A model generated the notes under the pieces. That model did not search any database and had not been told where the DNA came from. It worked only from the letters and a program-made list of their open reading frames with translations. This document shows positions 11,447 to 14,570 of a DNA stretch of 64,000 bases, one piece after another. This DNA comes from Bacteroidota bacterium. GTDB lineage: Bacteria > Bacteroidota > Bacteroidia > AKYH767-A > OLB10. Made by a program: the position numbers and the translations under genes. Position 1 is the first letter of the stretch, and the number at the start of each line of letters is the position of its first letter. The stretch is taken from contig JAGVTU010000005.1 of assembly GCA_019136655.1 (NCBI GenBank), positions 62,001 to 126,000 on the forward strand, read 5' to 3'.

Positions 11447-12769
11447 TTACCAGGGAACTAACGACACACCTATTGTCCATGGGCGTAACTCAGGTCCTTT
11501 GTTCTTCTTGAAAAAATCAGACAATGCATAATTGGCAAACAGGGTATAATTTCTGTAACCAATTCTCACAGTGGCATCATATCTGAATGGATCAATGTTA
11601 AAGTCGTCATAGGTTTTATCTTTTTTCTTGCTGCCGTTATCGTTATAAACTTTCTTGGTATGCGATCCTAACTTATAACTGAACAACATTCCTGCAGTTA
11701 TATGAAATGCTTTATTGGCTTCGGTGCTGGTATTGATGGTAAGCAGTACTGGAACTGTGAGATAACTTACAGTAAGTTTATTCTTGCGAAGGTTCATGGT
11801 ATCGGCAGTGTACCAGAGAGCATTGGTATCAGGTATCAGGCTCATGTTTTTTCTGAACCTGAAATTGTTGTATGATAAACCAACTCCTGTGGATGCAAGA
11901 ATGTAGTTCTTATACAATTTCAGCTCCTGCTCATAAAAGTTGATGTTTACAGCGATGGATTTCTCAGGAATCATTTCCAGAAAATCATAACCATCAGGAG
12001 TGTCAAAGTGTGATTTGCTGTTGTAAAATCCATTGAAACCAATATCAAGACCTGCCCAGTAAGTGCCTGCTTTATTGGGTTTGTAAGCATCGTTTTTATT
12101 AAATTCTTTTTCCTGATATTCTGTAAGCGGTTCAATTTTTCCAATTCCGCTTATTTCACGGTTGATGTGTTTAGGTGTACCTTTATAATAGATGCTTCCT
12201 GTACCTGTTATAGCTGTTGTCAAAGTATCCTGTGTAGCTGTAGTTGCAGTACCCACACCGCTAATATTTATTGTAGTTATTTCTGTTTTCAGGTTATGTG
12301 CTATCAGCTTTCCTGATCCTGAAATATCTGCATTCAGTTGATGGGTTTTTCCTTCAAGTTTTGTTTTTCCGGAACCACTGATGTTCACATCCAAGTTATC
12401 TGCATTTGCTACTTTAAGAGAAATTTTTCCACTTCCTGATACAATTAATTTAAGAGAAGTTGCAGTTAGACTATCTTTAGAGGTTAAAGAACCTGACCCT
12501 GAAATTTCAATGGATTTTAAACCGGGAGCTGAGATTTGAATATGATCTCCGGCACCATTAAGTATAAGACGATTGCCTTCCAGTTGCCACTGAGAGCTAC
12601 CTGAACTATCAGGAGTCTGTATGGAATAAGCAGCTCCATTTTCAAGAATAACTTTTGAAGAACCTTTTATCTCCAGTTCGCTGAATGGGTTTAATGGAGT
12701 GATAATTTGAGCTTCTGTTATAAAGCCGGTTGCAGCGATGGCTAACGACAGGAATATTTTTCGATACAT
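11447..12769 (-). CDS. Secreted GIN-domain (DUF2807) protein with outer-membrane barrel
   Basis: A 440-residue exported protein. Residues 1-21 form a signal peptide (MYRKIFLSLAIAATGFITEA). Residues from about 25 to 215 are a right-handed beta-helix of the head GIN/DUF2807 type, with repeated ISGSGK-like turns (EISGSGSL, IVSGSGKI, NISGSGKT, DISGSGKL, NISGVGTA, AITGTGSI, REISGIGKI). The remaining 220 residues alternate polar and hydrophobic residues and look like a small outer-membrane beta-barrel (PorT-like), ending in the aromatic-rich PWTIGVSLVPW. The joining of a GIN domain to a barrel in one chain is unusual. Function unknown; probably at the cell surface. Confidence 0.75.
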   Translation of the reverse strand: MYRKIFLSLAIAATGFITEAQIITPLNPFSELEIKGSSKVILENGAAYSIQTPDSSGSSQWQLEGNRLILNGAGDHIQISAPGLKSIEISGSGSLTSKDSLTATSLKLIVSGSGKISLKVANADNLDVNISGSGKTKLEGKTHQLNADISGSGKLIAHNLKTEITTINISGVGTATTATQDTLTTAITGTGSIYYKGTPKHINREISGIGKIEPLTEYQEKEFNKNDAYKPNKAGTYWAGLDIGFNGFYNSKSHFDTPDGYDFLEMIPEKSIAVNINFYEQELKLYKNYILASTGVGLSYNNFRFRKNMSLIPDTNALWYTADTMNLRKNKLTVSYLTVPVLLTINTSTEANKAFHITAGMLFSYKLGSHTKKVYNDNGSKKKDKTYDDFNIDPFRYDATVRIGYRNYTLFANYALSDFFKKNKGPELRPWTIGVSLVPW

Positions 12770-12958
12770 AAAATTAAGATTTTGTCTTGTTTTATGAATA
12801 GGACGGCCTGATGTTTTGAAAAGTTACAGCCACTTCAAAGAAAATTTTGATGGATTGGGGCTGATTAAATTATAGCAACAAACGGTGAAGCAGGTAAAGT
12901 AGCTAAACTTTCTATTATCTAAACCTGTCATTCAATTAATTTAATTCAAAAACCACAT

Positions 12959-12973
12959 TAAAATATGATTTTA
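12959..12973. promoter_or_regulatory. Candidate HipB operator O1
   Basis: TAAAATATGATTTTA is a palindrome with perfect 6-base arms TAAAAT/ATTTTA around ATG. Its reverse complement matches the second site at 13010-13024 in 13 of 15 positions. It lies just upstream of the -33 TTG of the hip promoter. Operator function is inferred. Confidence 0.5.
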
Positions 12974-12974
12974 C

Positions 12975-13005
12975 TTGCATAAACACTAAATATTTCTTAC
13001 TTTTG
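12975..13005 (+). promoter_or_regulatory. Promoter of the hipBST operon
   Basis: A -33 TTG (12975-12977) and a -7 element TACTTTTG (12998-13005) are separated by 20 bases, which fits the Bacteroidota consensus. The hipB start codon lies 19 bases after the -7 element. Confidence 0.65.
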
Positions 13006-13009
13006 ACTA

Positions 13010-13024
13010 TAAAATCACATTATA
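13010..13024. promoter_or_regulatory. Candidate HipB operator O2
   Basis: TAAAATCACATTATA has imperfect arms TAAAAT/ATTATA around CAC. It covers the predicted transcript start and ends one base before the hipB ATG. Its centre is 51 bases from the centre of the other site. A repressor bound to both would enclose the promoter. Confidence 0.5.
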
Positions 13025-13240
13025 ATGTTAGTTAGATCGCTTGGTGAAACTATTAAAAAAAGAAGAAAGCAATTGGGTATTACACAGCCTCATTTGGCTG
13101 AACTGGCAAATGTGAGTATAAATACGCTCTATAAACTGGAGAATGGGATTGGCAATCCTTCATTGTACGTGTTAAGTAAATTGGCAGAAGTGTTGGGAAT
13201 GGAGTTGAAAATGGAAGTTAAAAGAAATACTGTTAAATGA
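13025..13240 (+). CDS. hipB: HipB-like helix-turn-helix antitoxin/repressor
   Basis: A 71-residue XRE-type DNA-binding protein. The helix-turn-helix covers about residues 6-62: LGETIKKRRKQLGITQPHLA, then the recognition segment NVSINTLYKLENGIGNPSL. The basic tail KMEVKRNTVK is short. It is smaller than E. coli HipB (88 residues). By analogy it would repress its own operon through the two palindromes that flank the promoter. It overlaps hipS by 4 bases (ATGA). The order small HTH protein, HipA N-terminal subdomain, kinase is that of tripartite HipBST systems, not of two-gene HipBA systems. Confidence 0.85.
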   Translation: MLVRSLGETIKKRRKQLGITQPHLAELANVSINTLYKLENGIGNPSLYVLSKLAEVLGMELKMEVKRNTVK

Positions 13241-13566
13241 GATCAATGGAAATTTACTGCAACGGAAGTTTAGCCGGGACACTCACTGAAGAGAGTAAAC
13301 AACGTTATATATTCAGGTATGACGACAGATATTATTACGATTCAGGGAAACAGGCAATCAGTTTAACTTTACCCAAAACACAAAAGGAATATATCAGCAA
13401 AACTTTGTTTCCGTTTTTCAGCAATATGATTGCTGAAGGAGAGAATAAGAAAATACAAAGCAGGCTATTGAATATTGATGAGAACGATCAGTTTGGATTC
13501 TTGATGTTGACAGCCACTGCCGATACAATTGGAAGTATTACTGTTAAAAGCATCAATAGTCAGTGA
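13237..13566 (+). CDS. hipS: HipS-like protein (free-standing HipA N-terminal subdomain 1)
   Basis: A 109-residue protein corresponding to the first subdomain of HipA as a separate chain. The family pattern is visible: IYCNGSLAGTLTEE, RYIFRYDDRYY, AISLTLPKTQKEY, LFPFFSNMIAEGENKK, and DQFGFLMLTA. In the E. coli O127 HipBST system HipS is the antitoxin and blocks the kinase by placing a conserved Trp in its active site. This protein has no Trp at all; the LPEG-W-like segment reads MIAEGENKK. It may therefore inhibit HipT through another residue or not be the antitoxin. It is coupled to both neighbours by 4-base overlaps (ATGA, GTGA). Confidence 0.82.
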   Translation: MRSMEIYCNGSLAGTLTEESKQRYIFRYDDRYYYDSGKQAISLTLPKTQKEYISKTLFPFFSNMIAEGENKKIQSRLLNIDENDQFGFLMLTATADTIGSITVKSINSQ

Positions 13567-14570
13567 GTTTACCGAAAATAAAATATTGTCCCGGAACTCT
13601 TGCAGAAGGATTTAATAGTTACAGTCCCTCTTGCTTACGCAAATTGTTTTATGGAAAATCAGTTAGTCATGTACTTCCAATAGCTTCTCCTCAAAAGGAT
13701 GAAAAAGTACTTACTGATTTTCTTGAAAACATGAGAAGAATTTCAATATCCGGTTTTCAGAGTAAAATAAGTATGGTGCTTGATAAAAATGTTTTAAGAC
13801 TTACCCGAGAAGGTGAACAGGGCACTCATATATTAAAACCGATTCCTTCATTAATTAAGAAAAGAAATGAAGCTCCTGCAAACGAACACCTGACAATGCA
13901 GATTGCAAGCCAGGTATATGGATTAAAAACAGCAGAGAATGCACTTGTTTTTTTTAAAGGTGGAGAGCCTGCTTATATTACCAAGCGGTTCGATGTAAAA
14001 AATGTAAAGGAGAAAACCAAATGGGGGCAGGAAGATTTTGCTTCCCTTGCAGGAAAAACAACTCTGCATTCTGCTGATAAGTATGAGTACAACTATGAAG
14101 AAGTCGGTTTGTTAATACAAAAATATATTCCTGCCTGGCGTGTAGAAATTGAAAAATATTTTTCGTTAGTTGTTTTCAATTTTTTATTTTCAAACGGTGA
14201 TGCACATCTGAAAAATTTTTCAGTTTTGGAATCAGCAAGCGGTGACTATTTGTTAAGCCCAGCGTATGATTTAATAAACACAAGGCTGCATGTAGATGAT
14301 TCTGATTTTGCGTTAAACAAAGGTTTGTTTGCCGACAATTATAAAAGTACACATTACAAAAAAAACGGACATCCTTCTAAAAAAGATTTCACAGAGTTTG
14401 CAAGAAGAATTGGAGTTGCAGATAGCAGGACAGAGAAATTATTGGCTCCTTTCATGCAAAAGCAACCTTTTATGGAATCATTGGTTGACCGTTCATTCTT
14501 ATCCCAAGCCAATAAGAGGGCTTACTTATTAATGTACAACACAAAACGGAATTATCTGATAACTAATTAA
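13563..14570 (+). CDS. hipT: HipT-like serine/threonine kinase toxin
   Basis: A 335-residue kinase of the HipA family that lacks the N-terminal subdomain, which is supplied by HipS. It starts with GTG inside the hipS stop. The glycine-rich loop carries S61-I-S63-G-F-Q-S-K, an SIS motif like the two autophosphorylation serines of E. coli HipT. Other kinase elements are K92 (THILKPIP), E108, the catalytic loop N211-G-D213-A-H-L-K-N-F-S and the metal-binding D236 in LSPAYDLINT. HipA phosphorylates GltX and E. coli HipT phosphorylates TrpS; the target here is unknown. All active-site residues that I can identify are present, so it should be active. Confidence 0.87.
   Translation: MSLPKIKYCPGTLAEGFNSYSPSCLRKLFYGKSVSHVLPIASPQKDEKVLTDFLENMRRISISGFQSKISMVLDKNVLRLTREGEQGTHILKPIPSLIKKRNEAPANEHLTMQIASQVYGLKTAENALVFFKGGEPAYITKRFDVKNVKEKTKWGQEDFASLAGKTTLHSADKYEYNYEEVGLLIQKYIPAWRVEIEKYFSLVVFNFLFSNGDAHLKNFSVLESASGDYLLSPAYDLINTRLHVDDSDFALNKGLFADNYKSTHYKKNGHPSKKDFTEFARRIGVADSRTEKLLAPFMQKQPFMESLVDRSFLSQANKRAYLLMYNTKRNYLITN

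Follow-up and report, generated by a model that had tools for sequence, protein, structure and literature searches.

A pair of predicted HipB operators encloses the promoter of a Bacteroidota hipBST operon

Legionella pneumophila HipBST offers the closest known case for the promoter arrangement described here. According to the sections of PMC10653801 at hand, the Legionella hipBST operon has three near-identical, evenly spaced operators bound by purified HipB. Each is 18 nt long with 53-bp gaps between them, which by arithmetic gives a centre-to-centre spacing of 71 bp, and the first (O1) is located 24 nt before the start codon. Complexes of HipB with DNA can take up HipT or HipS-HipT in addition. 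The same sections describe hipBST homologs as widespread in the Fibrobacterota-Chlorobiota-Bacteroidota group and the Legionella operator motif as absent from the hipBST operon of Escherichia coli O127:H6. In that E. coli operon, HipB alone represses its own promoter, and HipBST and HipBT do so at lower expression levels than HipB needs by itself; the passages of PMC10627512 that report this give no operator sequence. The two-gene hipBA operon of E. coli K-12 (NC_000913), in which HipA is one piece, contains four TATCC-N8-GGATA sites with dyads at -125.5, -97.5, -58.5 and -30.5. Among the matches listed in a literature search that ran mostly outside subscription journals, no title or abstract opening describes a Bacteroidota HipB operator.

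The locus studied here lies in a 64,000-nt stretch of Bacteroidota DNA, which we call the window. Positions 13025-14570 hold a predicted hipBST tripartite toxin-antitoxin operon (Table 1). Its genes are ordered HTH protein, HipA N-subdomain protein and HipA_C kinase, and hipB/hipS and hipS/hipT overlap by 4 bases each. HipA_C is the sole Pfam match in HipT, and N-subdomain 1 is supplied as HipS (Couple_hipA). HipB matches Legionella HipB (8ezt) at 1.3e-5. HipT matches 7vkb at 2.8e-26 and Legionella HipT (8ezr) at 3.4e-26, against 1.8e-12 for 7ab3, which we take to be E. coli HipT; judged by these scores, the window protein is nearer Legionella HipT than 7ab3. PADLOC returned only HTH and distant HipA-like matches for the operon. 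The system is patchily distributed. Counting its own genome, HipT has a match at E ≤1e-20 in 28 of 100 genomes searched and at E ≤1e-60 in 33 of 395 genomes of the class, and one of three other genomes of the same genus lacks it at E ≤1e-20.

Table 1. Features of the operon and its promoter region, in window coordinates
Feature	Position	Strand	Basis or remarks
O2, upstream predicted HipB operator, AAACCACATTAAAATATGATTT	12950..12971	.	dyad 12960/12961; 19/22 to consensus
Semi-palindrome 1	12959..12973	.	holds right half of O2; own centre not conserved
-33 element, TTG	12975..12977	+	sequence; TTG favoured at about -49..-47 from ATG in 57 orthologs
-7 element, TACTTTTG (consensus TAnnTTTG)	12998..13005	+	sequence and ortholog box
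Semi-palindrome 2	13010..13024	.	holds left half of O1
O1, proximal predicted HipB operator, AAATCACATTATAATGTTAGTT	13012..13033	.	dyad 13022/13023; 20/22 to consensus
hipB, 71-aa Cro/C1-type HTH repressor	13025..13240	+	HTH_3 1.7e-14; TIGR03070 2.3e-16, below cut-off
hipS, 109 aa, HipA N-terminal subdomain	13237..13566	+	Couple_hipA 1.2e-19; TIGR03071 1.1e-23
hipT, 335 aa, HipA-like kinase without N-subdomain 1	13563..14570	+	HipA_C 1.1e-37

The initial annotation of this DNA had described two 15-nt semi-palindromes of opposite orientation on either side of the hipBST promoter. Both are present, they agree at 13 of 15 positions, and the first has perfect 6-base arms. The match between the copies in fact extends to 19 nt (17/19; 12955-12973 against 13010-13028). 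When the 267-bp promoter region was shuffled with dinucleotides preserved, 1 of 1000 shuffles held an equally good pair, in direct or inverted orientation, no more than 100 bp apart, and 1 of 2000 held two sites with at most one mismatch to the pattern TAAAATnnnATTTTA. A degenerate 19-mer fitting both copies occurs, with up to two mismatches, at these two places only in the 2.96-Mb genome. Because shuffles rarely match the pair and the 19-mer is unique to it, we conclude that the match between the two sites is genuine and improbable as a chance event. The window is AT-rich. On its own, TAAAATnnnATTTTA is unremarkable in the window: 131 matches at up to three mismatches against 132 expected, and three at up to one mismatch against a mean of 1.25 in 20 shuffled windows.

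Related promoters were drawn from 133 loci. Removing 11 without a recognised upstream hipB and five duplicates left 117, of which 105 have a HipT identity of at least 45%; two with short upstream regions (L112 and L151) and one with a misplaced start (L116) were then set aside, giving 102, or 103 in the autocorrelation below, which kept L116. Both the set of 102 and the 67 promoters whose HipB shares the helix type of the window (NTLY; the first type, or class A) contain near relatives, and near duplicates were thinned only for the profile (57 of 66 kept). For palindromicity and the operator model, the 67 promoters had to have an in-place start, with L123 added by hand; for the free pair search and the counts of operator arms, the 67 are without L123 and with L071. 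In L123 the hipB frame stops after four codons while both operators and the hipT frame are present, and it may be a hipB pseudogene. Five closely related hipBST operons that share the two operator types (L126, L137, L139, L148 and L154) are on contigs labelled Blastocatellia, Ignavibacteriales, Delongbacteria or Neomarinimicrobiota, by either horizontal transfer or mis-binning of metagenome contigs.

Conservation across the 67 first-type promoters falls on AAATCACATTATAATGTGATTT rather than TAAAATnnnATTTTA. The sequence AAATCACATTATA directly precedes the hipB ATG, and copies farther upstream read AAATCACATTATAATGTGATTT. The operator is a 22-bp palindrome, TCAC-N8-GTGA, with the half-site AAATCACATTA. 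Averaged over these promoters, palindromicity reaches 0.70 at -2.5 and 0.59/0.52 at -63.5/-64.5 from the ATG, compared with 0.44 at -8 and 0.34 at -59, the centres first noted (mean 0.31, sd 0.07). An odd centre at -5 also scores 0.59, probably as a by-product of the nearly fixed columns around the ATG. Exact TAAAATnnnATTTTA occurs within -100..+12 of hipB in 2 of the 67, one of them the window's own. The symmetry centres originally assigned are therefore displaced: the arms of each 15-mer come from one true half-site and an A/T-rich flank. Those centres, at 12966 and 13017, do lie 51 bases apart, but the conserved dyads are separated by 62 bp, or 5.9 turns at 10.5 bp per turn, so that the proposed five-turn geometry becomes one of about six turns. 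Because the real site is nearly palindromic, it is just as valid to call its copies direct repeats spaced by 62 bp. Sites were scored with a symmetric 22-bp model whose training set was the left halves of the proximal sites alone, with the 99% level of dinucleotide shuffles as threshold; O2 scores 20.4 against a 99% null of 3.9.

O1 covers the hipB start codon, and its fit to the consensus is imperfect (20/22). An ideal right arm, TAATGTGATTT, would read ATG-TGA, a start followed by a stop. The right core GTGA is found in O1 of none of the 67 first-type promoters (GTTA in 47, GTCA in 8), compared with 49 of 67 for O2; among the 67 used for palindromicity, codon 2 of hipB is TTA in 49, TCA in 8, TTG in 4, CTA in 2 and a singleton in four. 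A start codon within O1 creates a code conflict, and class-A operons appear to give up exactly those operator bases. The plasmid operons L175 and L176, which are close relatives of each other, have an operator that stops at the ATG and makes no use of the TG, and GTGA is kept. In the second operator type, described below, the right arm reads ATG-CAC (Met-His), which is legal, and CAC is found in 19 of 34 loci. At bases -11..-7 of hipB, the O1 left arm reads AGAGC in 15 of the 34 non-A loci; its symmetric form would be AGTGC, whose GTG would be an out-of-frame start just before the ATG and possibly a second coding conflict.

The predicted promoter between O1 and O2 is of the Bacteroidota type. 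In Flavobacterium, the TAnnTTTG box occupies -12 to -5 from the transcription start, according to the part of PMC9723704 available, and this position predicts a start near 13010 in the window. Of 102 loci, 97 carry a TAnnTTTG-like box (at least 5/6), which in 85 begins 24 or 23 bases ahead of the O1 dyad. Counted from the predicted start, O1 would run from about +3 to +24, and O2, from about -60 to -39, would sit immediately ahead of the -33 element. A sigma-70 scan of 12700-13200 yielded four matches against a shuffle mean of 2.0; the TTG/TACTTTTG pair is not among them, and one minus-strand match overlaps O1. The original picture of a hipBST promoter enclosed by two copies of one HipB-type operator, as predicted from these elements, stands.

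Both sites are kept upstream of orthologous hip operons, where their loss had been named as the finding that would count against the pair. An upstream copy exceeds the 99% threshold in 66 of the 67 first-type promoters, at a distance of 60-62 in 65 and of 83 in L118, where the distance falls to 61 if O1 is not fixed at the ATG. L150 has no upstream site over that threshold in the 22-bp model, and its best pair is at 82. A third copy at 119-124, about 61 bp past the second, is present in 43 of the 67, though the model finds none in the window; L145 has a fourth at 183. When pairs 40-90 bp apart were searched freely across both HipB types, 99 of 102 loci had their best pair at 60-62 bp, 67 of 68 from the first type and 32 of 34 from the rest; when each locus was mononucleotide-shuffled once, 6 of 102 did. 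The exceptions are L140 at 59, L069 at 70 and L150 at 82. The 99 include L138 and L143, which match the class-B consensus poorly but have palindromes of their own with a best pair at 61 bp; together with L140 they are counted among the 34 non-A loci and fit neither type well. Among the 34, the distance between neighbouring sites over threshold is 61 bp in 31 cases, 62 bp in six and 70, 122 or 123 bp in one each, and six loci (L066, L070, L120, L138, L140 and L143) have no pair over threshold. Direct-repeat autocorrelation, which uses no model, peaks at 61 (13.7) and 62 (10.9) over the 103 promoters (mean 8.5, sd 1.0).

Plasmid operons, the best 6 of 410 records, were fetched after the motif had been derived. 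In the five from Bacteroidota the best pair is 61 bp apart in every case, and the one Arcobacter operon (n=1) showed no such sites. In three of the five, and in several chromosomal loci, the distance from operator to start codon differs while the spacing stays. The shifted plasmid operators belong to the Runella pair and the Parabacteroides/Bacteroides pair, at least two independent cases.

The operator sequence follows the recognition helix of HipB. A second helix type (LRT[LI]) goes with a different operator, AAAGTGCATTATAATGCACTTT, at the same spacing, and the left arm of O1 varies with the helix type as well. Among the 102 loci examined, helix type equals operator type in 99 of the 99 scored for both; operator type was scored from -120..-36, and L138, L140 and L143 were unscorable for one or both traits. 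The classes are labelled by the N or R of helix 3, and in this column they therefore differ by definition. On a quick HipT tree, in which 37 of 99 inner branches are unsupported, helix type and operator type change 14 times each, and both traits change together in five of five independent pairs on starred branches (sign test p 0.0625). In L025, HipT is 74% identical to that of the window, yet HipB and operator are both of the other type. Because hipB adjoins the promoter, some co-inheritance of helix and operator type is expected from linkage alone, and the covariation supports recognition of the operators by HipB without proving it. L138, L140 and L143 have HipB helices outside the two main types and different palindromes again, whose arms contain CCG or TTCG.

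Given the conservation, the fixed place around the promoter and the covariation, we consider it highly probable, at roughly 0.87, that the two sites are HipB operators, each 22-bp palindrome taking one dimer, and that they enclose the promoter for autorepression. The most likely function is repression of the operon by HipB dimers on either side of a Bacteroidota promoter. Since O1 contains the start codon and would occupy about +3 to +24, a dimer bound there should block transcription initiation, while one on O2 would cover the region upstream of the -33 element. The dyads are on nearly the same face of the DNA, and the two dimers probably enclose the promoter; alone or with HipS-HipT, they may touch across it. 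The operon would then be repressed in proportion to its own products.

In layout, this resembles Legionella, as far as the available sections of PMC10653801 describe it: a HipBST operon with several near-identical, evenly spaced HipB sites, here predicted, and an O1 that overlaps the predicted promoter. The Legionella sites are 18 nt long and about 71 bp apart, whereas those described here are 22 bp and 61-62 bp apart; Legionella O1 lies upstream of the start codon, whereas O1 here covers it; and Legionella O2 and O3 are asymmetric, unlike the sites here. With its two sites, the window does not fit a Legionella-type array of three sites with 53-bp gaps and the first 24 nt upstream. E. coli hip, which had been cited as the model, is a loose analogue. 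The K-12 hipBA operon also places several palindromic sites ahead of hipB, with 8 bp between half-sites as here, but they are spaced by 28, 39 and 28 bp, none lies over the start codon, and the window, with half-sites ATCAC/GTGAT, does not fit the TATCC-N8-GGATA type.

How the dimers might cooperate is less certain. We infer cooperative contact because the spacing is close to a whole number of turns and carries on to third and fourth sites, and such contact would be consistent with the E. coli HipBST and HipBT repression and with the addition of HipT and HipS-HipT to Legionella complexes, as reported in the sections of both papers at hand. The promoter may thereby be clamped cooperatively or through the toxin. 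A broader and more tentative proposal is that HipB arrays sit on a phased grid, with 40-41 bp for distant Bacteroidota split-hip operons, 61-62 bp for those studied here and 71 bp for Legionella (about 4, 6 and 7 turns). What is constrained would be how far operators lie from one another, not how far they lie from the gene, and such a constraint would point to an assembly of HipB, HipS and HipT that touches adjacent operators and clamps the promoter. If so, the toxin/antitoxin ratio would be read out as promoter occupancy. The 4/6/7-turn series is suggested by three lineages. In 12 more distant split-hip loci, 40-41 bp repeats exceed the 95% shuffle level in seven and sit exactly at it in three (in L052 tied with other distances); L049 is below that level, and L045 has a 61-bp repeat exactly at it. 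Four distant loci with a GVGLRFxRE HipB helix (L037, L043, L048 and L051) have TACCC/CACCC-GGGTA/GGTAT palindromes upstream of hipB, in two or three copies 40-41 bp apart, a different operator on a four-turn grid.

Alternatively, two HipB dimers may bind independently, with the regular spacing simply leaving room for RNA polymerase between them, a reading we find plausible without favouring it. It accounts for the fixed place of the promoter between the sites, and the Legionella authors, in the sections of PMC10653801 at hand, raise intermediate occupancy as opposed to the cooperativity of E. coli HipB. However, third and fourth copies lie upstream of the promoter and keep the same spacing, which room for polymerase does not explain.

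Readings in which HipB is not the ligand fare much worse. That the sites bind some other regulator, which also controls other genes, could draw on the further genomic matches at two and three mismatches, 11+10 against 2+1 for a backwards control (palindromic places counted twice). Yet the operator type follows the HipB helix type in every scored locus, and the sole two other places with at most two mismatches, as well as the one 3-mismatch place checked, are inside open reading frames; we regard this reading as very improbable. The same locations led us to reject a genome-wide HipB regulon. Nor is it at all likely that O1 is kept as a translation-initiation signal or 5' hairpin in the mRNA instead of a DNA operator. 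O1 does lie within the predicted leader, over the ATG and with an A at -3, which the part of PMC6847099 available gives as a positive determinant of initiation in Flavobacterium johnsoniae. But O2 and O3, which lie ahead of the promoter and outside its transcript, are nonetheless conserved at fixed spacing; the O1 left arm changes with the helix of HipB; and the leader folds no better than its shuffles (window z -0.49, and likewise at two other loci). An RNA hairpin in the leader was discarded as a candidate, with no excess stability in the three loci folded. Finally, odd-centred TAAAATnnnATTTTA palindromes five turns apart are most unlikely to be the HipB operators, despite the perfect arms of one 15-mer and the rarity of two such sites in shuffles, because only 2 of the 67 promoters, the window's own included, carry the exact pattern, palindromicity at its centres is low, the conserved dyads lie elsewhere and the arms have another origin.

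The preferred reading, autorepression by HipB from both sides of the promoter, provides predicted operators for about a hundred operons, nearly all of them in Bacteroidota. Two recognition-helix types are matched to two operator sequences under a common spacing rule, and hipB has been exchanged naturally, along with its operator, between toxin lineages. With these operators, the spacing rule and the exchanges, the role of spacing and of HipT in repression becomes directly testable. The same pairs are candidate orthogonal repressor-operator combinations for Bacteroidota promoters.
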